A stretch of DNA of 29,738 bases, taken from positions 1-29,738 of the IMG/VR virus record IMGVR_UViG_3300030406_003889. One strand, given 5' to 3'. Shown one piece after another: positions 9,451 through 28,260 of the stretch. Below the pieces are notes generated by a model. That model saw only the letters and a program-made list of their open reading frames with translations, had not been told where the DNA came from and searched no databases. The position numbers and the translations under genes are program-made. How positions within the stretch are numbered: position 1 is the first letter of the stretch; every line of letters begins with the position of its first letter. The DNA comes from a virus.

Positions 9451-9780
9451 ATGGCAGTATATACAGCAGCAGAACTAAATGCTAGTGAAACGCTTGGTAC
9501 ATCCGAAGCTGAAATATTTACAAACAGCAACAAGATCATTATCAAGCAACTCATACTTGCAAATTACACAGCTACTGATAGAACAGCACAGATAAAAGTT
9601 GTACCTAACGGTGGATCAACAGCAGATAGTCACATTATATTTGGTGATATAACTGTGCAAGCTAACACAACTCAAGTTATTGACTTGGCTATGGTTGTTG
9701 CAGCTAATGCTTCTATTAGAGGTAAGGCAAGCGCAGCTAGTTCTATAAATGTACATGTTTCCGGTGTTGAGGTAAGCTAA
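9451..9780 (+). CDS. Small beta-rich virion protein, relative of the 6033-6365 product
   Basis: A 109-residue protein with alternating beta strands: KIIIKQLILANYTATDRTAQ, IKVVPNGG, IIFGDITVQANTTQVIDLAM and SINVHVSGVEVS. Length, strand pattern and position next to fibre genes match the 6033-6365 protein, suggesting two versions of one small virion subunit. It ends in a TAATG overlap with the following fibre gene. Decoration or fibre-joining function is inferred. Confidence 0.65.
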   Translation: MAVYTAAELNASETLGTSEAEIFTNSNKIIIKQLILANYTATDRTAQIKVVPNGGSTADSHIIFGDITVQANTTQVIDLAMVVAANASIRGKASAASSINVHVSGVEVS

Positions 9781-11108
9781 TGCCTTCCATAGAAATACCC
9801 GAGCCGGTCTTTTTAGACAGACTTGGTGGTGAGGAGGTATATGGTTTTGGACAAGATGGTAATGTCACAATAACCTCAAATACCACACTATCAAGAGATA
9901 TGTACTACAACAATTTAACAATAAATGCTAACTGTACATTAGATAGCAACGGCTATCGTATCTTTGTCAAAGGAACACTTACATTTACAAATAGCACTTC
10001 AAGAATAGGTAGATTTACAAACAAAACTACTGTAGGAACTCTTAAGGGTGGCTTTGCTAAAGGTACAGCAGCAACTGATACATTAGGCGGTAAATCAGGA
10101 TCACAATCAGACTCAGCACATAACGCAAACAAATTTTTTAGTGGGGAAAACGAATTTTTTAATTTAACAGTAGCTATACAGGGGTCAAAGTTTGATCCTG
10201 CGTCTGGCTCTTATAAGTTTATAGGAGGTGGATCTGGTGGGGGTGACGGATCGATTACAGCAAACGCCTCAGCAGGTGCAGACGGTGGTGACTCAAATTG
10301 GAGTGACTATCAAACAGTTGGTGCGCCGGGTGGTAAAGGTGCAACCGGTAATGCAGCAACAGCGGGTACAGGTGCGGTAGGCGGTGGAGTTGTTTTAGTT
10401 ATTGCTAAGACAATAGTAGGTGACGGTACAGTTAGAGCCGACGGTGATGACGCTTCTGCCGGAACGGATGGAACAACAGGCGCTCCTGCACCAGACGCTA
10501 GTACACCGGGAAACACAGTTCCGGGTAATACAAATACACATCCGGGAAATAACTATTCTTATTCAGGAAATAATTATTCATACGGATATAGCTATCCGGG
10601 GAACAACTATTCCTACACATCACCCGGAAACCCATACTCTTACAGCGGATCAAATCCTCACACACATTATCATTGGCACGGCGGTCCAACAATTAATAAC
10701 TATCAATCCGGATATTATCATTATCACTATAACCACTCACATCCATACACAAACTATGGAAGTAATAACCCTACAACAAACTATGGGTCTAACAATACTA
10801 ATTATGGAGCAAACTACGGGTCAAATCCAACTAACTATGGAAGCAACCCTACCAACTACGGTACAAATCCTTCTACCACAAACCCAACAGTTTATCACCC
10901 CGGCGGTGCAGGTGGCGCAGGCGGAACAGCATCAGACGGGTATAACGCGGGGGGCGGAACAGTAATTTTAATTTCAGGAACAAAACCTTTACCTAGCGGT
11001 TTGACATTAGCAGCAGCCGCAGGTACGAGTGGTACAGGAACAGCAGGTGCCGGAACTGTATTAACCGTTTACAATATTGCTGCTAGCGACACAGATCCGG
11101 GAGCGTAA
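9780..11108 (+). CDS. Fibre protein with Tyr/His/Asn-rich inserted tip
   Basis: A 442-residue protein. Residues 20-68 (YGFGQDGNVTITSNTTLSRD, MYYNNLTIN, GYRIFVKGTL) align well with the N-terminus of the 11110-11769 protein. Residues 195-222 (GTGAVGGGVVLVIAKTIVGD, GTVRADG) and 388-408 (YNAGGGTVILISGTKPLP, SGL) match contiguous sequence in that sister. About 165 residues, roughly 224-389, are thus an insertion here. The insertion has PGNNYSYS-type repeats, an alternating-histidine stretch (H294-H300 and H314-H321) and NYGSNPT repeats. Insertion in a beta scaffold, with hypervariable aromatic content, suggests the receptor-contacting tip. Chemistry resembles metal-bound HxH needles of T4 gp37, but that link is inference. 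Confidence 0.8.
   Translation: MPSIEIPEPVFLDRLGGEEVYGFGQDGNVTITSNTTLSRDMYYNNLTINANCTLDSNGYRIFVKGTLTFTNSTSRIGRFTNKTTVGTLKGGFAKGTAATDTLGGKSGSQSDSAHNANKFFSGENEFFNLTVAIQGSKFDPASGSYKFIGGGSGGGDGSITANASAGADGGDSNWSDYQTVGAPGGKGATGNAATAGTGAVGGGVVLVIAKTIVGDGTVRADGDDASAGTDGTTGAPAPDASTPGNTVPGNTNTHPGNNYSYSGNNYSYGYSYPGNNYSYTSPGNPYSYSGSNPHTHYHWHGGPTINNYQSGYYHYHYNHSHPYTNYGSNNPTTNYGSNNTNYGANYGSNPTNYGSNPTNYGTNPSTTNPTVYHPGGAGGAGGTASDGYNAGGGTVILISGTKPLPSGLTLAAAAGTSGTGTAGAGTVLTVYNIAASDTDPGA
10752..10868 (+). repeat. Tandem NYGSN(P)T peptide repeats
   Basis: Residues 325-363 of the 9780-11108 protein contain six to seven imperfect units of (T/A)NYG(S/A/T)N, encoded by varying codons (aactatgg, aattatgg, aactacgg). 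Such short Asn/Tyr/Gly repeats can expand or contract and are plausible length-variable linkers next to the histidine-rich tip. Confidence 0.75.
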
Positions 11109-11109
11109 A

Positions 11110-11769
11110 ATGGCTATAAAAGAAATAGGTGTAGTACCAAGCGACTTTGAAACTTTTGATGTGATACCAGACAGTATTTATGGCTCTGGTAATGACGGTA
11201 ATGTCACAATATCATCTAATACAACATTGACTCGTGATATGCACTACAACAACTTAACTATAAATGACGATATACATTTAAACACAGCAGGATATAGAGT
11301 TTTTGTTAGAAACTCTTTAATGTTATCTAGTACACCAAGCGAACAAGCTACTTGTTCATTAGGTAGAAAAGGCGCAGCTAGTACAGACGGAACATTAAAA
11401 GGCGGTACTACAGGTAATGCAACTAACAGTATTGGTGGTGCGGGAAATGGTACAAGTGCTACAGCGCCTACCGAAGGTATAGAATATTTTAACCACCCAG
11501 ACTTAGCTATAAGCGGAGTTATTGTACACGGTGGTCAAACAACACCCGAAGCTGTAGTTGGCGGATCAGGAGATACAACAAACGCAGGTGGTGGAATTGT
11601 AGTTTTATGTGCAAGAAATATTAGTGGTTATGGAACTGTATATGCTACAGGAGAATCTACTACCGGTGGTGGTGCAATTTTTATAGTTAGTCAAGACATA
11701 CCACTTACAGGACTAGCCACAGATGTCACAGGACACAATGACGGTAATGTAAAAACATTTAAGGTCTAA
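11110..11769 (+). CDS. Fibre protein, sister of the 9780-11108 product without the insertion
   Basis: A 219-residue protein. YGSGNDGNVTISSNTTLTRD, MHYNNLTIN and GYRVFVRNSL align with the upstream fibre. The C-terminus GGGIVVLCARNISGYGTVYA followed directly by TGGGAIFIVSQDIPLTGL corresponds to the two halves that flank the insertion in the sister. I start it at the ATG at 11110, one base after the upstream stop TAA; the in-frame ATG at 11077 lies inside the previous gene and adds unmatched residues. It is a structural fibre subunit. Confidence 0.8.
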   Translation: MAIKEIGVVPSDFETFDVIPDSIYGSGNDGNVTISSNTTLTRDMHYNNLTINDDIHLNTAGYRVFVRNSLMLSSTPSEQATCSLGRKGAASTDGTLKGGTTGNATNSIGGAGNGTSATAPTEGIEYFNHPDLAISGVIVHGGQTTPEAVVGGSGDTTNAGGGIVVLCARNISGYGTVYATGESTTGGGAIFIVSQDIPLTGLATDVTGHNDGNVKTFKV

Positions 11770-11771
11770 TT

Positions 11772-11897
11772 ATGGCTAAAAAATGTACTTGTGGTAGAAG
11801 CCCAATAGGTAATTGTATAGGCGTACATAATGTACCAGAAGAGGAATGGCTAGAAGCTTTAGAAGAAAATAGGCGGTTGATTTATGGCGACAGTTAG
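11772..11897 (+). CDS. 41-residue CDGSH-like iron-sulfur or zinc protein
   Basis: A small gene starting two bases after the fibre stop, encoding MAKKCTCGRSPIGNCIGVHN followed by VPEEEWLEALEENRRLIYGD and a last Ser. The spacing C-x-C-x7-C-x-G-x-H places three Cys and one His as in CDGSH-type [2Fe-2S] domains (CDGSH consensus C-x-C-x8-C-D-G-x-H), one residue shorter and with the Asp replaced by Ile. I have seen similar tiny CxCGRSP.G.C.G.H proteins in marine phages. It could equally bind zinc. The end overlaps the next gene by 14 bases. Confidence 0.65.
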   Translation: MAKKCTCGRSPIGNCIGVHNVPEEEWLEALEENRRLIYGDS

Positions 11898-12807
11898 AGT
11901 TTATTACAAACGAGAAGATCAAGATTATAGTAATTGGGATTTATTTTATTTTCCCGGCACTTTATATCCACAAGACGCACCTAATTTATTTCCTAGTGAT
12001 TTAATCGATAATGTATATCCTTATGGTCCAAGAAAAAAATTAAATTTTGTAGTTGACGGAACACTTGGTTATGTTGATGTTGAGTTAAACAATGCAAAAA
12101 GGTTTTCTTTATATATAAGACGCAAAGATTTTATAACAGATTATAACGGTGAATATGATACACCACTTAAATTGACAGACGATTTGTTAAACGAATATAA
12201 ATATGAAGTAGGTTATGTTTGGGATATTGACACAAATGTAAATCCTAATGTAAATTTTTATATAAAAAATGATAGCCCTTATGTTTATGCAGATAATACC
12301 TATACAGATGTTTTAGCTACCGATATTACTTGTACTACAATAGACAATTTTGATAAAGAACTTGATACAATATCAACAGATGACGGAGATGACGGAACTG
12401 ATCAGGGGTCATATTCGTTTATAAAAATATTTTACAGTAAAGCTCACGCATATTTTGTCGAAATACCTGACGATTGGGTTTGGCCTGTCGAGGGTAGTCC
12501 GGGAATAAAAGATATTCGTGAATATTCAATGCTATACTGTCTAGGAAACACTTACAATATAGGAGAAGATATGGATCTATCAATTAGCGCCGATGCCTTA
12601 GCAACGGAAAAAGCTGATGCCCTACAAGTCTGTGAGAAAGCAGTTGCTAACTGTCTTTACAAACTTGGTGAAGATATAGACGCATTTGACGAAACTGCGT
12701 TCTTGGCCGATGTTGATGCTTATAAAGCTACAAAAGATGTTAGCTTTGGTGCAACAATCGATTACTTAAAGGCACAACTAGATATTCGAGCAACACTCAC
12801 AGCCTAA
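11884..12807 (+). CDS. Unknown structural or glycan-binding protein, 307 residues
   Basis: The N-terminus TVRVYYKREDQDYSNWDLFY resembles the HY.R.DgdY..W.L..W start of pullulanase-associated (PUD/CBM41-like) glycan-binding domains; the likeness is limited to one strand region. The middle is acidic and Asp-rich (TISTDDGDDGTDQG), followed by an alpha-helical C-terminus (LATEKADALQVCEKAVANCL, then FLADVDAYKATKDVSFG). The position directly after fibre genes favours a virion or adhesin role. I do not recognise the family with certainty. It is the last gene before the modification cassette. Confidence 0.6.
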   Translation: MATVRVYYKREDQDYSNWDLFYFPGTLYPQDAPNLFPSDLIDNVYPYGPRKKLNFVVDGTLGYVDVELNNAKRFSLYIRRKDFITDYNGEYDTPLKLTDDLLNEYKYEVGYVWDIDTNVNPNVNFYIKNDSPYVYADNTYTDVLATDITCTTIDNFDKELDTISTDDGDDGTDQGSYSFIKIFYSKAHAYFVEIPDDWVWPVEGSPGIKDIREYSMLYCLGNTYNIGEDMDLSISADALATEKADALQVCEKAVANCLYKLGEDIDAFDETAFLADVDAYKATKDVSFGATIDYLKAQLDIRATLTA

Positions 12808-12824: not shown

Positions 12825-13295
12825 GTGAGATTAATATACTACATACCCGAAGGTGAATCTATTGATGATTACAAACAAGAATGGGAACAAGTAGTTGCCG
12901 AAGTGCATACAGGGTTATCACCAAACATAGAAGACTTTGTAAAAGACCCTAGTGTCGCACAACTTGTTGAAATACCTGAATATAGAAAAGCTCATGTTCC
13001 TGTTAATGCACCCTCAACAGAATTTGTACAATACATATATATTGACGAATTTATTGACAAAGACAATATGCCTCAATACTCAATGGAGGTCTGGTCAAAA
13101 AATTTAGACAATCCTAGTGAGCAACAAAATAAAATAGATACTCATTTACTACAATACGACAACCATAAAAAATATTTTTATAGTGAACATATTGCTCTTA
13201 AACCCGGATGGTATGACATAATTTTTTATAAAGACAAAAAAGAAGTAGATAAAAAAGAAATCGCTATATACGAAAAAGCAGATGAAGAAGAATAA
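12825..13295 (+). CDS. Unknown 156-residue protein opening the modification cassette
   Basis: Starts at GTG 12825 behind a strong AAGGGAGG. It begins MRLIYYIPEGESIDDYKQEW, has a central beta pattern (FVQYIYIDEFID, YSMEVWSKNL) and ends with HIALKPGWYDIIFYKDKKEV. The terminal G.Y.I.FY.....V tract suggests an Ig-like beta fold. I do not recognise a family. The next gene, a 2-oxoglutarate oxygenase, begins 14 bases before this one ends, which suggests coupled expression and perhaps a shared pathway. Confidence 0.65.
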   Translation: MRLIYYIPEGESIDDYKQEWEQVVAEVHTGLSPNIEDFVKDPSVAQLVEIPEYRKAHVPVNAPSTEFVQYIYIDEFIDKDNMPQYSMEVWSKNLDNPSEQQNKIDTHLLQYDNHKKYFYSEHIALKPGWYDIIFYKDKKEVDKKEIAIYEKADEEE

Positions 13296-13998
13296 TTTAT
13301 GGGTAAGTGGTACACCTAAAGAAGTTATTAGAGGTGTTGTCGCTTGGGAAAATTGCTTAGAAGTACCAGACGGCATAATAGAATCTATGGACGAAGATGT
13401 AGATAATTGGAAAGCCCAACAAACTTTAGAATCTACTAAAACAGACGAAGCAGCAAAATCTTTATATAACGATAACGGACCTATAAGATTTGATCCAGAA
13501 GCTCAATTTACAAAAAAAACACATTATCAATTTTTAAAACAAGTACAAGCAAACGCTTTAAACAAAGCAGCACAATATTTTGAATTGTACCCAGATGTAG
13601 AAAAAGAAGTTAATTGGTTAGAAAAGTACCAATACATAACTTATAGTCCGCCAAAACACATGACATATCATAGTGACAATCACTCAGTTAGAAACCCTAA
13701 AACAAATCAATATTACATTGCACCGTATATGCGTCGAATAACTATATTAACTTATCTCAATGACAACTTTATGGGTGGTAGTTTGAAATTTAGATACTTT
13801 CCGGAGGCTGATCCATACAAACCACCTGCCGGATCGGTTGTAATCATGCCTAGTTCTTTTGTTTATTCACATGCAACAACGCCTTTGTTGAACGGTCGTA
13901 AGTCTGCATTTTTAGTTTCACTTAGTAGTAATTTTGATATGGATAGCTATAATAATGGTAATCCAATAGACCAAATCAAGATGAGGGAGTTTTCGTGA
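13282..13998 (+). CDS. 2-oxoglutarate/Fe(II)-dependent oxygenase (prolyl-4-hydroxylase-like)
   Basis: A 238-residue protein with the core of the 2OG-Fe(II) oxygenase superfamily. The iron site is H130-S-D132 (MTYHSDNHS) with distal H197 (YSHATTP); R206 (NGRKSAF) would bind the 2-oxoglutarate carboxylate. Supporting core pieces are RRITILTYLNDNFMGGSLKF and PPAGSVVIMPSS. Members of this group hydroxylate prolines or other residues and small molecules, using O2 and 2-oxoglutarate. It overlaps the previous gene by 14 bases and the next by four (GTGA). The start at 13282 lacks a strong Shine-Dalgarno, so coupling to upstream translation is likely. Substrate unknown. Confidence 0.85.
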   Translation: MKKNNLWVSGTPKEVIRGVVAWENCLEVPDGIIESMDEDVDNWKAQQTLESTKTDEAAKSLYNDNGPIRFDPEAQFTKKTHYQFLKQVQANALNKAAQYFELYPDVEKEVNWLEKYQYITYSPPKHMTYHSDNHSVRNPKTNQYYIAPYMRRITILTYLNDNFMGGSLKFRYFPEADPYKPPAGSVVIMPSSFVYSHATTPLLNGRKSAFLVSLSSNFDMDSYNNGNPIDQIKMREFS

Positions 13999-14669
13999 AA
14001 AAAATTATGGGTTGTGTTGAAATCTATGAGGATTTCATTACAGAAGATCAAGCTAAAACAATTATAAAAATATGTGAAGATATTGATCAAGACGAAACAT
14101 TTGAATTAGGTTTTAAAGATGCGTCCGTTGGTAAAGGACACAAAGGCGGAGATATTAGGTCAAATAAGACTTTTGGTATTACTGAACATTACTTTTTACC
14201 TAAAGAATCAAGACTATACAGAGAGTCCGTTAAAAATGGTAATGACAAGTATTTTAGAGATATAGCTAACTTACAAGACTTACTCACACAAAAGTTAAGT
14301 GAGTATGTAAATGAATACACTAAAAAGTATGAGTTTCCAATTATGTTTGATGAGGGATATACTTTATTGCGTTATCAGGGCGGTCAAGAATATAAAGCTC
14401 ATTGTGATTATGCACCACACATGCCTAGATATTTAAGTGCGCTAATACTTTTAAATCCTACTGAGTATGAGGGTGGCGGTACATATTTCATACACTTTGA
14501 CGAAAATGTTAAACCCGATAAACCTGCTTTAGTTTTGTTTCCTAGCAATTACGCTTATTCCCATAGGGCTATGCCTATAATTAGTGGTACTAAGTATGCA
14601 ATAGTCACATGGTTAGGTCATCAAATAGACACAGATGGATTACCAGATTTTTATTTACCAAGAGGATGA
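13995..14669 (+). CDS. 2-oxoglutarate/Fe(II)-dependent oxygenase (prolyl-4-hydroxylase-like)
   Basis: A 224-residue protein, second of the tandem pair. The GTG start overlaps the previous TGA, with GAGGGAG six bases upstream. Iron ligands are H136-C-D138 (EYKAHCDYAP) and H190 (AYSHRAMP); K200 (SGTKYAIVTW) stands where 2-oxoglutarate is held, Lys being usual in prolyl-4-hydroxylases. LSALILLNPTEYEGGGTYF is the typical core. The N-terminus IYEDFITEDQAKTIIKICE is the standard entry helix of the family. Target is unknown: tail fibres, host envelope proteins or a metabolite are possible. Confidence 0.88.
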   Translation: MKKIMGCVEIYEDFITEDQAKTIIKICEDIDQDETFELGFKDASVGKGHKGGDIRSNKTFGITEHYFLPKESRLYRESVKNGNDKYFRDIANLQDLLTQKLSEYVNEYTKKYEFPIMFDEGYTLLRYQGGQEYKAHCDYAPHMPRYLSALILLNPTEYEGGGTYFIHFDENVKPDKPALVLFPSNYAYSHRAMPIISGTKYAIVTWLGHQIDTDGLPDFYLPRG

Positions 14670-14671
14670 AA

Positions 14672-15229
14672 ATGGATGCAATAATCATCACAGATTTATT
14701 TAAGGGAAATCAAGTAGAAGAAATGCGACATTGGTTAGACAATGAGTCGCCTTACTATGACGATCAAACTTGGGAAAGACACGAAACAGGTATGATGAAA
14801 AAGACTTGTCCCGAACTCGATATGTACCATATATTTAGTATTGACAAAGCAAGAGAAGTCTTTGATGTTCCCAATTTACTTCCTACCTTTGCTACTTTAA
14901 ATTGGTATGAAACTAATGCAAACTATCCTGTGCATAAAGATACAGATCCTGTTGAGTTTACAATTATGTACAACTACTACAGCGAGAGCGGTTGGAACAT
15001 GAATGTAAATGGTAGAGAAATAGTATTAGCAGACGAAGAGGCTTTAGCTTATGAAGGACAACAAACAGATCACGGTCGATTACAAAATCCGGGAGGAGTG
15101 ACTGTTGCGCTATACTTTAATTATGCACGACCAGACAACTACCACTTTGTTTTAGGTGAATTTAGTGGTGGTGAGCCGGTATTTCCGTCCGGTCGTCACT
15201 ATACAGAAATTAAGAAAGATTGGTACTAA
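14672..15229 (+). CDS. Putative 2OG-Fe(II) oxygenase-like protein (HKD...H type)
   Basis: A 185-residue protein with H88-K-D90 (NYPVHKDTDP) and H134 (TDHGRL) in the order and approximate spacing of the 2OG-Fe(II) oxygenase facial triad; R136 could serve the co-substrate. It resembles the 17563-18069 protein: LLP(T/S)(F/Y)A, VHKD or VKHKD, and EALAYEGQQ versus QALAFYGEEQ just before the H.R motif. I start it at ATG 14672, six bases after AGAGG; the in-frame starts at 14609 and 14666 lie in the upstream gene. Sequence is distant from classical members, so the enzymatic call is moderately confident. Confidence 0.65.
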   Translation: MDAIIITDLFKGNQVEEMRHWLDNESPYYDDQTWERHETGMMKKTCPELDMYHIFSIDKAREVFDVPNLLPTFATLNWYETNANYPVHKDTDPVEFTIMYNYYSESGWNMNVNGREIVLADEEALAYEGQQTDHGRLQNPGGVTVALYFNYARPDNYHFVLGEFSGGEPVFPSGRHYTEIKKDWY

Positions 15230-15943
15230 ATGGTAGAAATAGATTTAAGTGTGGGGGAATCAATAGAATACGACGCAAGTGATAGGGCTGAACAACTATT
15301 AATGAACAACAGGCTTACACTTGATCCGTCTTTAGAATTTTATGTAAATGAAAACATTACAAATATTGACAAAGCATTATTTGTTGGTGCAGGAGTAGGA
15401 GTAGCAAGTAAAGTGCTTACTTCAAATGGTAAAGAAGTAATAAATGTTGAGCCAATAACTTCAAGATTTGCAGATTTAGAAACAAATTGTTCTAGCGCTA
15501 CAAATATAAACAAAGCTTGTGCAAGCACAAGTCGTAGCGGTACAATGTACTACTTTGACAATAACAAATCTGGTGCAAAACTAGATGTTGATTTTGGTGA
15601 GGGTGAACAAGCAGTTGAGGTTATTACAGTAGATAGCTTAGATTTAACAGATCTTGATCTGTTAGTCATAACTACAAATGGTAGCGAACTAGATGTTCTT
15701 GACGGTTGTGTAGATACTATTGCAGACAATCCCGATATGAAAGTTATTATTAGTTGGACACCCGATCTTATGGATAATATAGACGACAAAATTGACGATT
15801 TGAAAGCACAACCTTTTACAACTTATAAAATAATCCATTGGGATAAAGATACAAATGCTATATCTTTAAGAAACCAATATACAGGTGATTTTCCAGACGA
15901 CAATTTAAAAATAGTAGAACAAGCAATGGTGTTGATGGAATAA
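15230..15943 (+). CDS. Degenerate FkbM-like SAM-dependent methyltransferase
   Basis: A 237-residue protein with class I methyltransferase order: LFVGAGVGVASKVL at 50-63 (glycine-rich SAM loop), INVEPITSRFADLETN at 71-86 (acidic E74 of beta-2), VITVDSL at 131-137, and DLLVITTNGSELDVLDG at 143-159. The last matches the FkbM signature D.LKID.EG.E..VL.G, but the Lys and Asp are replaced by Ile-Thr-Thr, so catalysis or substrate choice may be altered. FkbM enzymes O-methylate sugars or other hydroxyls. It starts immediately after the preceding stop (TAAATG) and overlaps the next gene by one base. Confidence 0.7.
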   Translation: MVEIDLSVGESIEYDASDRAEQLLMNNRLTLDPSLEFYVNENITNIDKALFVGAGVGVASKVLTSNGKEVINVEPITSRFADLETNCSSATNINKACASTSRSGTMYYFDNNKSGAKLDVDFGEGEQAVEVITVDSLDLTDLDLLVITTNGSELDVLDGCVDTIADNPDMKVIISWTPDLMDNIDDKIDDLKAQPFTTYKIIHWDKDTNAISLRNQYTGDFPDDNLKIVEQAMVLME

Positions 15944-16761
15944 TGGCTAAATGGTGGGAACGAAAAGAATATAGTAGATTTTTAGAAGTCAAAAAACATA
16001 AAGTTGGCGACGATAAAATCCTATTCCTTACAGGTGATCCTGAATATGTTGATCTAGCTCCACCTCGTCCTGCTAAAGAGTTTATACCTGCTTGGTACAA
16101 ACATTTACAAAGAGAGTGGACAGAGTTAAGAGAAGACGACGATAGTTGGAATACAGTTCCTTACAAAGATAATTCTTTAAAAAAATGTCCTACTGTAAAA
16201 GATATGATGACGGCGGGATATATTATACCTTTATGGCTTGATCTTAAAATTAGTCATAATAAGCAAACAGGATTTAATTGGTACAACAAGCACGCTTACA
16301 ATGAAACTATTACATATCACGATCCCGCGTCCATAGGTAATATGCCTTTTCAACCTACAAGTTTTAACACAGCATTAAAATTTACAAATCCGTGGGATAT
16401 AGTGACACCACCGGGTTGGTCAGTTATCATAACTCAGCCGTGGTATCATCGTATTTGGGAAATAGAAATTATGCCTAGTCTTGTAGAAACTGACTCTTAT
16501 CATCAAATGAATATACCTTTTATATATCACGGAGTTGGTGAAAAAACATTTAGACAGGGTACGCCTCTAATACAAGTAATACCCTACAAGAGAAGTGGTT
16601 TTGATTTAAAAGACTACGAAAGTAGAGATATGGATGATTTAGACAAACTTTATTACTCAAAAAGCAGGTCTGCGGAAAGAACAAGACAAAACGGTTTTTA
16701 CCGTTGGCTTACGCAACAAAATAAAAAGATATGGAAAGAAGAGGGGGTTATAGATGAGTAA
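15943..16761 (+). CDS. Unknown marine phage family protein, copy 1 (TPPGWS/VETD family)
   Basis: A 272-residue protein. Signature pieces are PPRPAKEFIPAWYKHL, KKCPTVKDMMTAGYIIPLW, ALKFTNPWDIVTPPGWSV, PSLVETDSYHQMNIPF and RQGTPLIQVIPYKR. All of these recur in the 18066-18812 protein. The fold is probably beta-rich. I recall related unannotated genes in cyanophages near 2OG oxygenases, and a remote likeness to DUF6065, but no activity is established to my knowledge. Conserved His (YHQ), Asp-Glu (VETD) and Trp residues could form a site. The gene overlaps both neighbours by one and eight bases. Confidence 0.75.
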   Translation: MAKWWERKEYSRFLEVKKHKVGDDKILFLTGDPEYVDLAPPRPAKEFIPAWYKHLQREWTELREDDDSWNTVPYKDNSLKKCPTVKDMMTAGYIIPLWLDLKISHNKQTGFNWYNKHAYNETITYHDPASIGNMPFQPTSFNTALKFTNPWDIVTPPGWSVIITQPWYHRIWEIEIMPSLVETDSYHQMNIPFIYHGVGEKTFRQGTPLIQVIPYKRSGFDLKDYESRDMDDLDKLYYSKSRSAERTRQNGFYRWLTQQNKKIWKEEGVIDE

Positions 16762-17584
16762 ATGTCCAATACCTAGAATTACTGATATATGGTCAAAGCC
16801 TATGAAAGATATAAGCAGAAGCGCACCTAGGGTTGCATACACAGTACCCGTACCTAATTTACAATGGGGTCAATTAGAAAATGAGGAAAGTAATGCTTTA
16901 CCCTCAGTTAATTATGAACTACCTAAAAAGTTTGTAAAAGCCCCTAATGGTTGTGTATCTACACAATTTATGAGAAATAGATTATATGAAGTTAACTTTC
17001 CATATAGTTATGTAAAAATCAAAATGAGAAAAAATGAATTGGCTGACGATGTAGATAGATACGGTGGTTTTGATTTTAACGCACATTTTTACGGTAATGT
17101 AAAACACCACGGACCTTTTAATCAGCTTATTGTTGAAGAAAAAGAAGGTTGGGCTAGACCGGGAGTACCTACTATGCAAATATCTATGCCGGTTATGTTA
17201 TTTTGTGACGATCCGGAAGTATGGATGGATGTACTACCTAGTGATAGAAATGTGGGTAAAGATTTACCTATTAGTACAATACCCGGATTTATGCCTATAC
17301 ACTCTTGGTCTAGAGGTTTATCTTGGGCTTTTGAGTGGGTTGATCTTGATCGTGAAGAGTGTTTATTAAATCACGATGTAATTATGTTTAATTTATTATT
17401 CTCTAAACCGGTAAAACTAGAATATGTACCGTGGAACGAGGAGTTTAGTAAACAATGGAATTTGATTAGTCAATCCTCAGTTAATCGTAGAGATACTAAT
17501 CAATTATATCCCGAAGCTTTGAGTAGAAGACCAAGAAGACTAGTACCAAAGAAACAGAAATTATGGAAAGAAAAGAAATACTAA
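16754..17584 (+). CDS. Unknown protein, diverged relative of the TPPGWS/VETD family
   Basis: A 276-residue protein starting MSKCPIPRITDIWSKPMKDI. It shares gross layout rather than strict motifs with its two neighbours: an N-terminal VPVPNLQWG and Pro-rich entry, a central FNAHFYGNVKHHGPFNQLIV, then PTMQISMPVMLFCDDPEVWM, TIPGFMPIHSW, SWAFEWVDLD and NLLFSKPVKLEYVP. These mirror the order PPGWS ... PG ... FPW ... KRGMPFLHVIPF. I treat relatedness as likely but unproven. It overlaps the flanking genes by eight and 22 bases. No function assigned. Confidence 0.65.
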   Translation: MSKCPIPRITDIWSKPMKDISRSAPRVAYTVPVPNLQWGQLENEESNALPSVNYELPKKFVKAPNGCVSTQFMRNRLYEVNFPYSYVKIKMRKNELADDVDRYGGFDFNAHFYGNVKHHGPFNQLIVEEKEGWARPGVPTMQISMPVMLFCDDPEVWMDVLPSDRNVGKDLPISTIPGFMPIHSWSRGLSWAFEWVDLDREECLLNHDVIMFNLLFSKPVKLEYVPWNEEFSKQWNLISQSSVNRRDTNQLYPEALSRRPRRLVPKKQKLWKEKKY

Positions 17585-18069
17585 TTGAAGAACTATTCCC
17601 ACAAGATATTTTTAATCGTCTTGTTGGACTAGTAAAAAGAAATTACAAAAACTTTGAATACAACGAATTTTTTGGTAGGTATGGGTGTAGTAGTGATTTA
17701 TGGCGTGCGATTATGCCGTACTTTAACAGATCAGTAGCGGTTGCTAGAGATGTGTTCCAATCCCCTACCCTATTACCTAGCTATGCTTTAGCCTGTCATT
17801 ATGAGGGCGAGCTTGCTGAATTAGTAAAACACAAAGACAACAATGCTTGTACATATACAATAGATTTACATTTGTATAGTGATACGGATTGGCCTTTAAT
17901 TGTAGAAGGTCGAGAATATATTTTGAAACCAAATCAAGCCTTAGCATTTTACGGTGAAGAACAAGAACATTGGCGACCGCCTTTTCCAAATGTAGATAAC
18001 AATGGTGTAGGGGCTGCGTTTTTTCATTTTGTTGAGCCGGAACATTGGTTTTTTACAGGTGAAAAATGA
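17563..18069 (+). CDS. Putative 2OG-Fe(II) oxygenase-like protein, paralogue of 14672-15229
   Basis: A 168-residue protein with H90-K-D92 (ELVKHKDNNA) and H136-W-R138 (EEQEHWRPPF), matching the candidate iron and co-substrate positions of the 14672-15229 protein. LLPSYALACHYEG before and NQALAFYGEEQ between them also correspond. WPLIVEGREYILKPNQ is the beta-strand pair just before the distal His. It begins 22 bases inside the upstream gene and ends in ATGA with the next. The shortness suggests a minimal double-stranded beta-helix core. Confidence 0.65.
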   Translation: MERKEILIEELFPQDIFNRLVGLVKRNYKNFEYNEFFGRYGCSSDLWRAIMPYFNRSVAVARDVFQSPTLLPSYALACHYEGELAELVKHKDNNACTYTIDLHLYSDTDWPLIVEGREYILKPNQALAFYGEEQEHWRPPFPNVDNNGVGAAFFHFVEPEHWFFTGEK

Positions 18070-18812
18070 GGTGGGTAAAAAAAAATAATATAGAGTTTGC
18101 AAGTATTATACCTGCATTACCCGACATAGCACCACCTGTACCTGCAAGTCAAATGATACCGGAGTGGTTTAAAAAACTACCTTTAGATCTTCAACAAGAC
18201 AATCACAAACCATTTCCTATTATGAGTTCTCTTATAAAAGATTTGAATTTGCATACAATAAAGAAGTGTCCTGCTGTTGTTGATTACTTCACAGAAGGTT
18301 ATATTATTCCTTTTTGGTGTGATATGTTAATACAAAGAGTAGGTGAAACTTTCCATTTTGAAACTAACTTTAGTGACGACAATGGCATAGGAAGTACTTT
18401 AGAGTTTCATGACGAGCAACAATTCAGCACATATCCTTTTGAAAGAAATGATTATCGTAGAGCTGTAAAGTTTACTAGCCCGTGGTTTTTTTGGACACCA
18501 CCGGGTTGGTCAACACTATTTTTACAACCGCAACTACACCCTAATAAAGATTTTACTTTGTTTCCGGGTGTTGTAGAAACAGACACTTTCCATCAAGTAA
18601 ATTTTCCTAGCGTATGGCATAGTGAGGGTGAAAGATTAATTAAAAGAGGTATGCCGTTTTTACATGTAATACCTTTTAAAAGAGAAAAAAAGAATCTTGT
18701 AGTTAGTAAGTGGGATGAAAAACACGATCACGCTATAAGGGACGAAAGTTTTAAATTAAGAAGTAAAATGACAGGTGGGTACAGACAGATTAACAAGAAT
18801 AGGTTTCAATGA
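18066..18812 (+). CDS. Unknown marine phage family protein, copy 2 (TPPGWS/VETD family)
   Basis: A 248-residue paralogue of the 15943-16761 protein: ASQMIPEWFKKLPLDL, KKCPAVVDYFTEGYIIPFW, AVKFTSPWFFWTPPGWST, PGVVETDTFHQVNFP and IKRGMPFLHVIPFKRE. Conservation is concentrated in these blocks while intervening loops differ, so the copies probably share an active or binding site but differ in partner or substrate. It starts in an ATGA overlap with the oxygenase-like gene and ends in an ATGA overlap with the ferredoxin gene. That placement makes the ferredoxin a candidate redox partner. Confidence 0.75.
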   Translation: MRWVKKNNIEFASIIPALPDIAPPVPASQMIPEWFKKLPLDLQQDNHKPFPIMSSLIKDLNLHTIKKCPAVVDYFTEGYIIPFWCDMLIQRVGETFHFETNFSDDNGIGSTLEFHDEQQFSTYPFERNDYRRAVKFTSPWFFWTPPGWSTLFLQPQLHPNKDFTLFPGVVETDTFHQVNFPSVWHSEGERLIKRGMPFLHVIPFKREKKNLVVSKWDEKHDHAIRDESFKLRSKMTGGYRQINKNRFQ

Positions 18813-19072
18813 AAGTATGGATAGATCAAGATCTTTGCACAGGTGACGGACTTTGCGCTGAAATAGCACCTGATGTTTTTGTTATGCAAAATGACGGTTT
18901 AGCTTATGTTCAAGAAGTAGTTGGTAATTTTGGTGAATTAAAAATTTTTAGCGAAATACACAACAACGATCAGGGCGCAGAGGGGTTAGCACGAGTACCT
19001 AAAGGTCAAGAGGATTTAGTGACCGAAGCAGCAGAGGAATGCCCGGGAGAATGTATTTTTATAGTACCATAG
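18809..19072 (+). CDS. Ferredoxin, [3Fe-4S] or [4Fe-4S] single-cluster type
   Basis: An 87-residue electron carrier. MKVWIDQDLCTGDGLCAEIA gives C10-x2-D13-x2-C16, followed by PDVFVM, and the end EAAEECPGECIFIVP supplies C78. This is the layout of single-cluster ferredoxins that serve cytochromes P450 in actinobacteria and of Pyrococcus ferredoxin, where Asp replaces the second Cys; the third Cys of the 4Fe form is Ala20 here. C82 is an extra Cys. A 25-residue acidic insertion lies between the cluster arms. ATGA overlap with the upstream gene suggests stoichiometric co-expression. Phage-encoded ferredoxins usually tap host reductases; the acceptor here is unknown. Confidence 0.9.
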   Translation: MKVWIDQDLCTGDGLCAEIAPDVFVMQNDGLAYVQEVVGNFGELKIFSEIHNNDQGAEGLARVPKGQEDLVTEAAEECPGECIFIVP

Positions 19073-19078
19073 AGTATT

Positions 19079-19228
19079 ATGGTAAATAACTACAACTTAG
19101 AATATGATTTGCTTAAAAAAAGCAAAATAACGGACAGATCACCAAGAAGTATTGTAGATCAACCCCTTAGTGACCAACCATTTAACGAAATTTACGGTAA
19201 AGAGGAATCTAAAAAAACTTCTTCATAA
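19079..19228 (+). CDS. 49-residue hypothetical protein
   Basis: A short ORF six bases after the ferredoxin stop: MVNNYNLEYDLLKKSKITDR, then SPRSIVDQPLSDQPFNEIYG and KEESKKTSS. It is hydrophilic, without Cys clusters or membrane segments. There is no strong Shine-Dalgarno (AGAGTATT). Composition resembles the neighbouring coding sequence and the reading frame is followed by a non-coding gap, so I think it is real, but no family is recognised. Confidence 0.55.
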   Translation: MVNNYNLEYDLLKKSKITDRSPRSIVDQPLSDQPFNEIYGKEESKKTSS

Positions 19229-22487: not shown

Positions 22488-25241
22488 GTGCTTCGTAAGT
22501 TCAATACCTTAGTTCGTTTATTAATTGTTGCTTTACTAATATATCCTTTCCCCTTAGCAGTAGCACAAGAAGTCACCGTCAACGAGGGTTTTAGTGATCA
22601 AGATTGGGATGGCTACTTTACTATTACAAGAGAAAATAGTAATTCACATAATACTGTTTGGACAGAAAGTAGTAATTACGGAACGCAGGGACAATTTCTA
22701 AGTTTATGTCATCAAGTTCATGGTAGTTGTACTCACGAATATACTTTTGAATTTTCAAGTGATATAGATGTATATGAAGTAGGTTTTGAAGTAGGTGCAG
22801 TCAATCAAGCATACTCAGTCACTTTTTATTATTCGGATGATACAACCGAAACAGAAAACAAGTCTGCACAGGCTTATGGAAATAATGGTGCAGATATGTA
22901 TGACACATTTTATAAATCATTTACTGATTACAATGCAGTAGCAGAAAACACAGATAAATTTATAACAAAGTTTGTTATTGACATACACGATTGGTCTAGC
23001 TTTGACGATATGTATTTTCAATACGACGATGCTATATCTACAGGTAGTTTTGCTACAACAACTACGACTTCTAGCACTACGACAACTACAACTACAACTA
23101 CAACTACCACAACGACTACTACTACCACTACTACCACAACTTTACCCCCTGCGCCTAACGGAATATCTAGTTATACAATTAGTGAAAGCTCAAGTGGTAT
23201 AACAGTTGATTGGGAAACACCATCCGATAACGGTGTCACAATAGGTGGGTATAGAATATTAGTAGCAGAAACCTATGATCAAGACTATAACGCTAACACT
23301 TGGTTTGAGGTGTATAGAAGTACAGATACCGATACTACGGAATTTACTTTACCGTGGGTAGATAACAATGACGCAATAGAATATGACACTCTAAACGGCA
23401 CTTACTACTATCGTTTATCAACTTGTGCTACTAATTGGATGTGTAATGATGTTGAGGCGACTTATACAGTAGATAATACTGTTGGACCACCAATGAATCC
23501 TACAGTAGAAAATGTTTACAATAGTGGTGTCAAAGTTGTATGGGATATGCCTAACACAGGAACTAGAATTGCTGAGTCTTATGATTTATATTACAGAATA
23601 GACGCAGAAAACGAAACTGTTGTCTATAACATAACAAATACAGAGTACACTATACCTTATAGTGCAATTACTAACAACACTTACGAATTTTCAATTAGAG
23701 CTTATAGCTCTACTTATAATGTTTATAGTGGTTATTCTACCGAGCCGACGCTAACAGTATTTAATCAAAAAGCACAAGACGATTACGACGCTGAACAAAA
23801 GCGTTTAGCTGAAGAAGAGGCTGAACGCAAAAGACAACAAGCTATACAAAACGAAAAAAATAAAAATTTTAACGAAACAGGTTATTACGAAACAGATCAA
23901 GAGCGTAGAGATCGTGAGCAAAGAGAGTATGAAGAAGAGCAAGCCCGTCTAAAAGCTATTGAAGAGGCTTTAGAGCAAGAAAGACAATCTAACTTTGCCG
24001 AAACAGGATATTATGAAACTAACCAAGAGCGTGCTGACAGGGAATATCAAGAAGAACAAGATAGATTGGCAGAATTACAAAGACAGCGTGACAAAAACGA
24101 AGCTGAAACAGGTTATAGCGAAACAGATGAGGAAAGAGTTGCTAGAGAATTAGCGGAAGAAAAGGCTCGTATTGAGCAAGAAATTAAAGACTCTATTGTA
24201 TTACCTACTACAACTACAGACACAGACGATGATGACCAATCACAATTTGGTGGTGGTGGAGAGCCAATAGACATAATTGAGTTAGTAGAAACTATAATTG
24301 AAATAAAAGAAAATACGGATTTTGATGATTATAAAGTTGACACAACGCCAGAAATTAACTTGGAAGAGATTGTTATTGTCGTACCTCCTACTACGACGAC
24401 TACGACCACGACTACAACCACTACTACAACGACTATCCCAGATAAACCTGAACAAGATGAGGATAACTCATTTTTTGGTACGGAGGGAGATCAAGAGGTA
24501 CAACTCACAGAAGAAGAAGTAGAAGTTTTAGTAGAGGCTGCTGAGGAAGCTATTACAGAAGTAGTAGAAGTAGAGGAGTTGACCGAAGTATTTGAGGATA
24601 ATGAAATAGAAATTATCGAGGAAGAAGAGTTAGAAGATCTGTCGGTTGAAGAGCAAGAAGAGTACATAGAACAGGTAGAAGAGGCGGTAGCGGAAGTTGT
24701 TGCCGAACTTGATACAGAAGAAAAAGTAGAAGTCGTAAAAGAAGTAGCTAAGGTTTCCGTACAAAACTTAGGTAATGCTGATACAACAACTAAAGCTGTT
24801 GTAAAAGCTGTTGTTAAAGAAGTCACAAAGGTAGAAACCGTAGCTGAATTAGACGAAGAAGAAAAACAAGCCGTTGGTGAAGTGTTAGGTTTTGAAGAAG
24901 AAACAGCGGCGGAAGATGTTGAAATTATTGCACAACAAGCAGCCGAAGAAGAAAACATAGCTACAGCTGTTGAGGAATATGTTGAAAGAGCTATTGCTAA
25001 CGAAGATGTTGAAAATTTTACACTTGCAGATGTTGTCACAGAGGTACAAGTAGAGGCGTTTTTGGAAAATCCAATAGGTGAGCTGACAAGTGTTAATATA
25101 GATATTAGAGAGATGGATCTGGGGTCGATAGGCGCTGACATGACAAGCGACCAAAAAGAAAAAGCACAAGAAGTAGTAGTACCGGTTATTATTGCTTCTC
25201 AAATTATCGCTCAAGCGGGTGCTTTAATTAGGAGATTTTAG
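22488..25241 (+). CDS. Large secreted, C-terminally anchored protein with Thr linkers, FnIII and coiled-coil domains
   Basis: A 917-residue protein from GTG 22488. Residues 1-26 are a signal peptide (basic start, LLIVALLIYPF core, AVA cleavage). Next come a beta-rich domain (27-188), a 29-residue Thr/Ser linker (190-218), two fibronectin-III-like domains (about 220-328 and 334-424), and a charged coiled coil (430-570) with three ETGY(Y/S)ET...ER repeats. A Gly-rich hinge leads to a second linker of 15 Thr (635-649), a very acidic helical region to about 860, and a C-terminal hydrophobic helix (VVVPVIIASQIIAQAGALI) ending in RRF. It would be exported and membrane-anchored. Thr linkers are typical of actinobacterial surface proteins. 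Possible roles: receptor masking, adhesion or virion component. Confidence 0.8.
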   Translation: MLRKFNTLVRLLIVALLIYPFPLAVAQEVTVNEGFSDQDWDGYFTITRENSNSHNTVWTESSNYGTQGQFLSLCHQVHGSCTHEYTFEFSSDIDVYEVGFEVGAVNQAYSVTFYYSDDTTETENKSAQAYGNNGADMYDTFYKSFTDYNAVAENTDKFITKFVIDIHDWSSFDDMYFQYDDAISTGSFATTTTTSSTTTTTTTTTTTTTTTTTTTTTTLPPAPNGISSYTISESSSGITVDWETPSDNGVTIGGYRILVAETYDQDYNANTWFEVYRSTDTDTTEFTLPWVDNNDAIEYDTLNGTYYYRLSTCATNWMCNDVEATYTVDNTVGPPMNPTVENVYNSGVKVVWDMPNTGTRIAESYDLYYRIDAENETVVYNITNTEYTIPYSAITNNTYEFSIRAYSSTYNVYSGYSTEPTLTVFNQKAQDDYDAEQKRLAEEEAERKRQQAIQNEKNKNFNETGYYETDQERRDREQREYEEEQARLKAIEEALEQERQSNFAETGYYETNQERADREYQEEQDRLAELQRQRDKNEAETGYSETDEERVARELAEEKARIEQEIKDSIVLPTTTTDTDDDDQSQFGGGGEPIDIIELVETIIEIKENTDFDDYKVDTTPEINLEEIVIVVPPTTTTTTTTTTTTTTTIPDKPEQDEDNSFFGTEGDQEVQLTEEEVEVLVEAAEEAITEVVEVEELTEVFEDNEIEIIEEEELEDLSVEEQEEYIEQVEEAVAEVVAELDTEEKVEVVKEVAKVSVQNLGNADTTTKAVVKAVVKEVTKVETVAELDEEEKQAVGEVLGFEEETAAEDVEIIAQQAAEEENIATAVEEYVERAIANEDVENFTLADVVTEVQVEAFLENPIGELTSVNIDIREMDLGSIGADMTSDQKEKAQEVVVPVIIASQIIAQAGALIRRF
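23055..23141 (+). repeat. Poly-threonine linker 1
   Basis: Twenty-nine codons encode Thr except for two Ser. All four Thr codons (aca, act, acg, acc) are mixed, so the tract is held at protein level instead of arising by simple trinucleotide slippage. It separates the N-terminal domain from the first fibronectin-III-like domain. Confidence 0.9.
24390..24434 (+). repeat. Poly-threonine linker 2
   Basis: Fifteen consecutive Thr codons of mixed type, preceded by VVPP and followed by IPDKPEQDED. It separates the coiled-coil and hinge part from the long acidic region. Such VPPTTTT...(L/I)P linkers are a feature of many actinobacterial extracellular proteins. Confidence 0.9.
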
Positions 25242-26343: not shown

Positions 26344-26467
26344 CCCGCCGTGTCCTGTATGCAACCATACATTAATGGAAAGACACGCGGGATTATATTG
26401 CTATAATTACAAATGTCCGCAATTTAATCAAAAGGTGGTGGCGTGCTGTGAAGGAGGACAATGCTGA
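26330..26467 (+). CDS. 45-residue zinc-ribbon-like protein
   Basis: MKKSDPPCPVCNHTLMERHA then GLYCYNYKCPQFNQKVVACC and EGGQC. C8-x2-C11 and C24-x4-C29 form a probable zinc site; the terminal CCEGGQC adds three more Cys. The first glycosyltransferase starts 20 bases before this gene ends. Two consecutive mini zinc ribbons overlapping a glycosyltransferase operon suggest common expression, though partners are unknown. Confidence 0.6.
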   Translation: MKKSDPPCPVCNHTLMERHAGLYCYNYKCPQFNQKVVACCEGGQC

Positions 26468-27449
26468 AAAGATTTATGTGTATTTCGCCTGTTTTAATGA
26501 CAGCGAAGTATGTCCTACTATATCAAATTGTATTTTAAGTGCTGATCAACCTGAAAATTTAGTGTTTGGAATATATTTTCAATACACCAAAAATTATACA
26601 CGATACGCATTTACAGATTTTATAAGTCAATTTGATAATGAGTTTAGAGTAGATTACGAGCATATTACGGAAGATAATATTGTAGATGTTATTGGTCTAG
26701 CTAAAGGTCGTATAAAATCGTATGCTATGTGTCAAGACGAAGAGTATAAAATGCTTATCGACGGACACATGATGTTTGCTAATGGTTGGGACACTAAAAT
26801 TAAAGAAAAGCACAAAATAGCAGACGATCGAGGAATAACTAAGCCAATTATTAACGGTTATGCAGGATTGTATTATTTTGATGACGAGGGTAATAGAGTC
26901 CCGCATTTTAGAAAAGAATTGACTAATCTACGCTATCAATATTTTGTCGTTGACGACGAAAATGATATACACCAAAAAATGATGAGATTTAATTGGCATG
27001 ATAGATTACCAACTCATGTTATGACAGATCTAAATCCAAATGGCGACGAAATTGTACCTAATGTAAGATTTTCCGGTAATTTTAGTTTTTCTAGGTATAA
27101 CTTAGTAGAACATTTACCTGAGTGGGTTATATTTGAGGACGAGGAGATGCCGTGGACTATAAACTTATTTGACGCAGGTTTTAACTTTGTCTTTCCTTTA
27201 TTTGACGAGCCAACCATTATGCACTTATATATGGGTAGAGAGCCATTTGATGTACAATCTACTAGAGATCAAATAGAGTTTTTGTACCCAGATTATCAAG
27301 CTTTACAACAACAAAAGTATGACAATGTTTCTAATTATTTAGACGATCCAGATAATTATGATAAAATTATAAAATATCAAGAATATGCAAAAGTTAAAAT
27401 TTTATCAGGTGAAACAATAGATAGATATGTCCCAAACAATTTTCGTTAA
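26448..27449 (+). CDS. GT60-like glycosyltransferase (GlcNAc-transferase family), copy 1
   Basis: A 333-residue protein from GTG 26448. The GT-A-type N-terminal part has VYFACFNDSEVCPTISNCIL, LVFGIYFQY, AKGRIKSYAMCQDEEYKMLI and DGH at 105-107 as the metal/nucleotide-sugar motif, then ANGWD. The C-terminal half has VRFSGNFSFSRY, a W.IF.DEE.P motif and HLYMGR. This order resembles the GlcNAc (PF11397, GT60) family, which adds GlcNAc to hydroxyproline in eukaryotic Skp1. The copy at 27427-28260 shares all these blocks. Likely acceptor: a phage or host protein or glycan. Confidence 0.75.
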   Translation: MKEDNAEKIYVYFACFNDSEVCPTISNCILSADQPENLVFGIYFQYTKNYTRYAFTDFISQFDNEFRVDYEHITEDNIVDVIGLAKGRIKSYAMCQDEEYKMLIDGHMMFANGWDTKIKEKHKIADDRGITKPIINGYAGLYYFDDEGNRVPHFRKELTNLRYQYFVVDDENDIHQKMMRFNWHDRLPTHVMTDLNPNGDEIVPNVRFSGNFSFSRYNLVEHLPEWVIFEDEEMPWTINLFDAGFNFVFPLFDEPTIMHLYMGREPFDVQSTRDQIEFLYPDYQALQQQKYDNVSNYLDDPDNYDKIIKYQEYAKVKILSGETIDRYVPNNFR

Positions 27450-28260
27450 AATCTGCTCTTTAGACGACACGGAGCTTGGACCTACAATTATGGATTGTGT
27501 TATAAAAGCAAGAGCGCCACATAAACTTAGATTTGGGATTAGTTTGATGTATAAAGACGAGGACACCCTAAAGGATTTTATGTCCGTTAAAAAGGAAGCT
27601 GAGAGCTTTGGGGCGCAATTTAGAGTCATTACACAACCTTTTAGAAAGTTTAACATAGGTGTTGGTAAAGCTAGAGCTACCGTAGATAGTATGTATAAAA
27701 ATGAGGATTATGTACTACAAATAGATAGCCATAGTTGGTTTCCTCATAATTGGGACTTAACGCTTACAAGTTTAATTATGTATCGTGATCCTAAGACAAT
27801 ATTTACCGGATACGGATCACCTTATACCTATGAAAACGGTAAAAGAGAGCCAAAGGATATAGGTAAATTACTTTACCCCGAACTAACAAATGACAAACTG
27901 TTTTGTGAGTGGCTACCTCAAAATTGGCGTCCGGTATATCCAAATAGTGAAGAAACCTTTATACCTACTAAGTTTTGTGCTAATTTTTCATTTGGTACAA
28001 GTAAGTGGGGCGAATATTCGGGTGTCTTTGAAAAAGCTATATTTTATAGTGAAGAGCCTGTACAAACACAAAAATTAAAAGCAAAAGGTTTTAAATTGCT
28101 TTATCCAAACTTAGACGAGCCAATGATATGTCATTTGTATTACAACGACATAGGACATTATGGTAAAAGAAAAGCATTTACAGATTATGTAAGTGACTTT
28201 GAAAGTAATTACTTAATGAATGTAATGGACAAACATTATTACGAAAATTTTACAGTTTAG
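27427..28260 (+). CDS. GT60-like glycosyltransferase, copy 2
   Basis: A 277-residue protein. VKICSLDDTELGPTIMDCVI, KARAPHKLRFGIS, GKARATVDSMYKNEDYVLQI, D100-S-H102, PHNWD, TKFCANFSFGTS, IFYSEEP, LKAKGFKLLYPNLDEP and HLYYND follow the GT60/GlcNAc-transferase order. DSH in place of DxD is usual in that family. It overlaps copy 1 by 23 bases, so both are made together; divergence suggests different acceptors or sequential action. The C-terminal helical tail is shorter than in copy 1. A non-coding gap of 107 bases follows. Confidence 0.8.
   Translation: MSQTIFVKICSLDDTELGPTIMDCVIKARAPHKLRFGISLMYKDEDTLKDFMSVKKEAESFGAQFRVITQPFRKFNIGVGKARATVDSMYKNEDYVLQIDSHSWFPHNWDLTLTSLIMYRDPKTIFTGYGSPYTYENGKREPKDIGKLLYPELTNDKLFCEWLPQNWRPVYPNSEETFIPTKFCANFSFGTSKWGEYSGVFEKAIFYSEEPVQTQKLKAKGFKLLYPNLDEPMICHLYYNDIGHYGKRKAFTDYVSDFESNYLMNVMDKHYYENFTV

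Follow-up and report, generated by a model that had tools for sequence, protein, structure and literature searches.

A conserved block of predicted oxygenase, methyltransferase and DUF6065-like genes behind the tail-fibre-type genes of an IMG/VR virus

A co-inherited block of eleven packed genes

We analysed IMG/VR virus record IMGVR_UViG_3300030406_003889, a marine bacteriophage fragment whose complete sequence of 29,738 bases is referred to here as the window. A preliminary description, made from the sequence alone, had pointed to a ten-gene modification cassette at positions 12825-19228. The cassette stands but the count does not, since this interval is filled by eleven + strand open reading frames (ORFs), all at the coordinates of the ORF list. 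We name them A to K:

A, 12825..13295, + strand: immunoglobulin (Ig)-like beta-sandwich with an acidic tail (EEE); probable virion protein (AlphaFold2 (AF2), Foldseek)
B, 13282..13998, + strand: predicted 2-oxoglutarate (2OG)-Fe(II) oxygenase of prolyl 4-hydroxylase (P4H) type, HxD...H-x9-K (PF13640, invariant residues, PDB profile matches)
C, 13995..14669, + strand: predicted 2OG-Fe(II) oxygenase of P4H type (PF13640, phrog_61 at 1.5e-31, invariant residues, PDB profile matches)
D, 14666..15229, + strand: probable 2OG-Fe(II) oxygenase, paralogue of H, facultative (phrog_2954, HxD...H)
E, 15230..15943, + strand: FkbM-family methyltransferase (PF05050, S-adenosylmethionine (SAM) motif)
F, 15943..16761, + strand: DUF6065-like, with a predicted fold like that of the dUTPase superfamily (phrog_7084, alignment with I)
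G, 16754..17584, + strand: lineage-specific conserved protein, no family
H, 17563..18069, + strand: probable 2OG-Fe(II) oxygenase, paralogue of D, facultative (phrog_2954 at 1.6e-14, HxD...H)
I, 18066..18812, + strand: DUF6065-like, paralogue of F (phrog_7084, AF2/Foldseek, hhalign to dUTPases)
J, 18809..19072, + strand: ferredoxin (Fer4_15)
K, 19079..19228, + strand: small ORF of 49 aa, the last of the block, kept in relatives

As the preliminary description had stated, nearly every junction overlaps: there are eight overlaps of 1-22 bases, and the largest gap inside the block is 6 bases. A and B overlap by 14 bases, B and C by GTGA, and C and D by ATGA (D starts at 14666); D and E abut directly (TAA followed by ATG), E and F overlap at TAATG, F and G by 8 bases and G and H by 22 bases, H/I and I/J both overlap at ATGA, and J and K are separated by the 6-base gap. 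The block itself begins 17 bases after the upstream gene s15, and 71 bases lie between K and the next gene downstream. A search of Rfam gave no match, and scans for promoters and terminators gave signal no better than that of shuffled sequence.

Searches for relatives that started from F, G, E and C all recover the same virus group; a DUF6065 profile search reaches further phages beyond the block-bearing group. Comparison of gene strings, with duplicates removed, yielded 29 distinct complete variants. Nine genes (A, B, C, E, F, G, I, J and K) are always present in the same order, whereas D (present in 20 of 29) and H (25 of 29) have been lost individually, with nine and four absences and the flanks closed up; I is duplicated in three variants. 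Hence the scattering or independent loss that the preliminary description had named as evidence against a cassette is seen for D and H only. The ratio of nonsynonymous to synonymous substitution rates (dN/dS), calculated against three relatives, is 0.02-0.29 for genes A-J, indicating purifying selection. Because these values are low, and because gene order is kept although the identity of protein A falls as low as 33%, we conclude that the block is not due to chance but is real, conserved and under selection. The evidence supports a modification cassette whose genes overlap and are inherited together, and that includes several enzymes dependent on iron.

Co-inheritance alone is no proof of joint function, since the block is confined to one lineage and descent contributes to its preservation. 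In the extreme case, unrelated genes would simply have been kept together by a conserved late operon, and the flanks s11-s15 and t3-t4 are indeed as syntenic as the block. However, strong purifying selection acts on each gene, the genes are translationally coupled, two enzyme families are each represented by several copies, and the same two families are clustered in cyanophages; synteny by shared descent alone is therefore highly improbable.

One relative, G001 (85 kb), whose F protein is identical, encodes a capsid of HK97 type, S78 protease, portal, terminase and tail-tip proteins and, in addition, a WhiB regulator (L066:5544-5834). WhiB points to an actinobacterial host, and on this basis the host is probably an actinobacterium.

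Protein families encoded in the block

The two proteins previously called 2OG oxygenases, B and C, both match PF13640 above the cut-off (E 1.5e-7 and 1.9e-13, respectively), and H136, D138, H190 and K200 are invariant in 40 sequences. HxD...H with a lysine ten residues past the second histidine is the prolyl 4-hydroxylase arrangement, in which the lysine anchors 2OG. A joint B/C profile compared with PDB matched PKHD, the viral P4H 5c5t, bacterial P4Hs, and collagen prolyl 3-hydroxylase and P4H. Judged by sequence, then, B and C are P4H-type 2OG oxygenases.

D and H had been described as HKD...H oxygenase-like proteins, and a nearly invariant HxD...H is confirmed in 30 relatives (H90 and H136 invariant, D92 at least 90%), with the aspartate of the triad lost in D of one relative (L041). 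Neither protein has a Pfam or PDB match, and hhalign to B/C is not significant; a cyanophage homologue of D/H is annotated as a 2OG oxygenase. D and H are probably 2OG oxygenases, paralogous to one another. PHROG families 2954 and 3531 carry the label 'ferrochelatase', yet their members here (14666-15229 and 17563-18069) have the HxD...H of 2OG oxygenases; the label looks wrong.

Could these oxygenases instead act on host proteins, for instance ribosomal ones or regulators, or draw down 2-oxoglutarate and so reprogram host nitrogen control? A cluster in cyanophage S-CREM1 includes a JmjC_2 member resembling ribosomal oxygenases; moreover, Sullivan et al. proposed 2OG modulation linked to nitrogen for cyanophages (PMC3037559), and host reprogramming has been suggested for cyanophage relatives (PMC9602691; PMC9964418). 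However, this would leave the fixed fibre linkage, FkbM, DUF6065 and the glycosyltransferases unexplained, and the probable host, given WhiB, is actinobacterial rather than an NtcA-bearing cyanobacterium. We consider such an effect on the host improbable.

The FkbM-like assignment of E was correct: the protein matches PF05050 with E 2e-7 (31.7 bits against a cut-off of 22.7), and both its SAM motif, G-A-G-x-G, and E74 are invariant. The same is true of J, a single-cluster ferredoxin that matches Fer4_15 with E 1.5e-18. Foldseek matches of an AF2 model of A (pLDDT 93) include beta-sandwiches of Ig-like and phage tail proteins, so that A is probably an Ig-like beta-sandwich and a structural or virion protein. 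G has no family match, and no relatives of it were found outside the present virus group.

FkbM enzymes often methylate sugars, and a block containing one might make or tailor a small secondary metabolite or decorate the host surface polysaccharide. A secondary metabolite or capsule decoration is what Iyer et al. predicted for a ten-gene halogenase/2OG/cupin-like cluster in the jumbo cyanophage S-SSM6a (PMC7824862). In the present block, however, no assembly enzyme (synthetase, ligase, polyketide synthase or non-ribosomal peptide synthetase) or transporter is among the family matches, B and C resemble protein hydroxylases, and unrelated phages show the placement behind tail fibres as well. A metabolite or polysaccharide product is thus rather unlikely.

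Three proteins, F, G and I, had been set down as being of unknown family. F and I turn out to be a single family, matching phrog_7084 with E 5e-53 and 1.5e-55, while G is not detectably related; its membership of the DUF6065/dUTPase-fold group, suggested by eye, was dropped for want of hhalign support. PF19541 (DUF6065) matches the core region of F with 19.3 bits and of I with 18.5 bits, below the curated cut-off of 26.6; we call both proteins DUF6065-like because the strong phrog_7084 matches tie them to the same halophage and cyanophage family. With an AF2 model of I (pLDDT 79.5), the 38 best Foldseek matches are all dUTPase or dCTP deaminase (DCD), the best having E 1.8e-3 and probability 1.0, with modest TM-scores of about 0.2-0.6. 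A profile of 21 diverse DUF6065 members aligned by hhalign to genuine dUTPases with P = 1e-4, compared with 0.15-0.4 for controls, and PPGWS...GVVETD...GMPFLHVI was paired with PEGWEGQ...GTIDWD...GDRIAQLV, in the motif order II-III-IV. The RSG motif and Gly-rich motif V of dUTPases are absent from the F/I family, in which PxxH replaces RSG and there is no GGFGSTG. From model and profile together, the predicted fold of the family is dUTPase-like without the RSG phosphate-binding motif, a first structural handle on DUF6065. Ordinary dUTPase activity is unlikely, because RSG and motif V are missing. An open-access literature search found no paper naming DUF6065, and three bacterial DUF6065 loci have no common cluster.

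DUF6065 genes also have tail-fibre or collagen-like genes as neighbours in halophages and in freshwater phages. Freshwater-type phages with an actinophage-type GP88 gene (L203-L210) have one to three of them next to collagen-like tail fibres, and sulfotransferase genes occur near the DUF6065 loci of L203 and L208. An extra DUF6065 gene (L065:11615-12379; G001:31615-32379), present in other relatives as well, adjoins a tail-tip fibre gene about 4.7 kb upstream of the point equivalent to the start of the window. Unlike this fibre linkage, the DUF6065 gene of halophage HRTV-13 (L055) and of cyanophage S-RIM4 (L075) adjoins ribonucleotide reductase genes.

That adjacency and the dUTPase/dCTP-deaminase-like fold would suit modification of nucleotides or phage DNA, with F and I selecting a nucleotide that the 2OG oxygenases hydroxylate. 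Against this, the DUF6065 family lacks the phosphate-binding RSG motif, DUF6065-bearing HRTV-13 encodes a separate dCTP deaminase of its own, and there is no Tet_JBP match among the oxygenases. Nucleotide modification is, in our view, very unlikely.

Tail-fibre genes, linked glycosyltransferases and a possible role

Three genes lie immediately upstream of the block:

s13, 9780..11108, + strand: putative tail-fibre tip or adhesin and candidate substrate (conserved repeat and His-x-His domain)
s14, 11077..11769, + strand: paralogue of the s13 N-terminal domain, structural-type (by-eye comparison; position kept in relatives)
s15, 11884..12807, + strand: conserved neighbour ending 17 bases before the block (weak PUD match)

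The low-complexity domain of s13 has PGNNYSY, GYSY/GYSYGYSY and NPTNYGS units around HTHYHWH...YHYHYNHSH, with hairpin-like segments. This repeat and His-x-His domain (YHYHYxHxHP) is kept in all relatives, and its repeat units are encoded with differing synonymous codons; it is therefore the protein sequence that is kept. A codon-pattern search for HTHYHWH in 2.9 million viral contigs gave 41 matches, 35 of them s13 and six unrelated. The block is present in 33 of the 35 s13 contigs, the other two being truncated by the end of the contig or locus. The His-x-His segments of s13 resemble iron-binding fibre needles; iron is bound by such segments at the tip of T4 gp37, and marine phage fibres have them as well (PMC11705849).

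A collagen-like Gly-X-Y substrate was also sought in the window and rejected, there being no long GXY runs. Glycine makes up 28% of the s4 product (4260-5360), which has long Gly-rich stretches in the manner of the polyglycine adhesins found in T-even phages. The t6 protein (22488-25241), 917 aa in length, has a signal-like segment at its N-terminus, contains acidic repeats and runs of poly-Thr, and gave no family match.

Two further genes of interest lie downstream:

t9, 26448..27449, + strand: PF11397 N-acetylglucosamine (GlcNAc)-transferase-like glycosyltransferase (45.9 bits against a cut-off of 21)
t10, 27427..28260, + strand: PF11397 GlcNAc-transferase-like glycosyltransferase (59.2 bits against a cut-off of 21)

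PF11397 matches in relatives score 61-80 bits. In 8 of the 29 variants, a PF11397 gene is located between I and J or just past K: inside the block in L027 and L034, and on the - strand right after K in six others. PF11397 (GT60) is the family to which the Skp1 hydroxyproline GlcNAc-transferase belongs.

We favour, with a conviction that is about evenly balanced, the reading that the block, joined to the tail-fibre operon, is a module that serves to modify a virion protein. We do so because it sits directly behind tail-fibre-type genes, has linked PF11397 genes and has a parallel in cyanophages; because B and C resemble protein hydroxylases and keep the P4H lysine invariant; and because nine genes never vary, dN/dS is low and every long-enough s13 contig carries the block. 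This fits better than the complete, separate biochemical pathway first proposed: the families present assemble no self-contained metabolic pathway, and the linked glycosyltransferases lie outside 12825-19228. Nor are the genes as unlike normal morphogenesis genes as was suggested, since A is probably structural and the block is continuous with tail-fibre-type genes.

In outline, the block would be expressed late, together with the tail-fibre operon. B and C, aided by the facultative D and H, would hydroxylate side chains using host 2-oxoglutarate, O2 and Fe(II). They would act on a tail-fibre protein, in a region that is exposed and repetitive; the foremost candidate is the s13 repeat domain, rich in Pro, Asn, Tyr and His. 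The hydroxyls so formed might then be glycosylated by t9/t10 and methylated by E. F and I may hold the substrate or place it for reaction, or may themselves be a new enzyme, and J may supply electrons. The analysis itself establishes the content, order and joint conservation of the genes, the selection on them, the motifs, the fold relation of DUF6065, the repeat domain and the linkage of the glycosyltransferases; we infer the late timing, the substrate, the order of steps and the roles of DUF6065, G and J. In its full form, the proposal is tentative and somewhat doubtful: P4H-type enzymes would hydroxylate a repetitive fibre tip rich in His, Pro, Asn and Tyr, glycosylation and O-methylation would follow, and DUF6065, a dUTPase fold put to a new use, would handle the substrate, on a principle shared with cyanophage halogenase/2OG clusters.

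Several points weigh against modification of virion proteins. The s13 protein is a candidate substrate and a putative virion protein. The position of the glycosyltransferase varies, being about 7 kb from the block in the window, and PF11397 also includes transferases that do not act on hydroxyproline. DUF6065 adjoins ribonucleotide reductase genes in S-RIM4 and halophages, hinting at nucleotides, and all block-bearing viruses are one lineage, in which the flanking t3/t4 are equally syntenic.

Among the accessory genes that marine phages commonly carry without an explanation are those for 2OG oxygenases and halogenases, which tend to be classed as metabolic reprogramming. Literature searches gave no paper that describes phage tail-fibre hydroxylation. 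If these enzymes do finish tail fibres, their place is in host recognition, and having a substrate to name, s13 or the Gly-rich adhesins, makes fibre modification directly testable.

Comparison with known systems

In syn9, S-RIM44, S-CREM1 and P-TIM40, one or two tryptophan halogenases, one DUF6065 gene and further genes lie right behind Gly-/His-rich fibre genes; in S-CREM1, the further genes are annotated as 2OG or JmjC enzymes. Profiles from the block match the DUF6065 gene in all four cyanophages and a D/H-type (phrog_2954) gene in three. A small cyanophage ORF after DUF6065 was considered as a counterpart of ferredoxin J and rejected, as it has no cysteine motif. The cyanomyovirus halogenase cluster (syn9 gp41-54, S-CREM1 ORF69-80, S-RIM44, P-TIM40) thus resembles the present block in having overlapping genes behind fibre adhesins, a DUF6065 member, PF13640-type 2OG enzymes and, in three of four cases, a D/H-type gene at its end. 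It differs in its halogenase (PrnA/VirX1): no flavin-dependent halogenase (PF04820), a family present in S-CREM1, was found among the block or scanned window proteins. The present block, for its part, has extra DUF6065 copies, FkbM, ferredoxin, the orphan G, A and PF11397 glycosyltransferases, and belongs to an HK97-type virus with a tail-tip protein and a probable actinobacterial host. Therefore, two phage groups share the fibre-side placement with different enzyme sets.

In the eukaryotic Skp1 pathway, the P4H PhyA hydroxylates a proline to which Gnt1 (PF11397/GT60) then adds GlcNAc. The likeness lies in the pairing of a P4H-type oxygenase with a PF11397-family transferase, but that pathway is eukaryotic and has a single cytosolic substrate, so that the present case is a gene-family resemblance only. 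The second-best PDB match of the B/C profile, 5c5t, which we take to be the P4H of Chlorella virus PBCV-1, is likewise a viral P4H-type 2OG oxygenase, but it comes from a eukaryotic virus and lies outside any tail-fibre operon. The S-SSM6a cluster also groups 2OG and cupin-like oxygenases with methyltransferases in a phage, and differs in carrying carbamoyltransferases, a halogenase and HemK (PMC7824862). We conclude that phage gene clusters of this type are already known, though unexplained, and that the block adds a new form to them.

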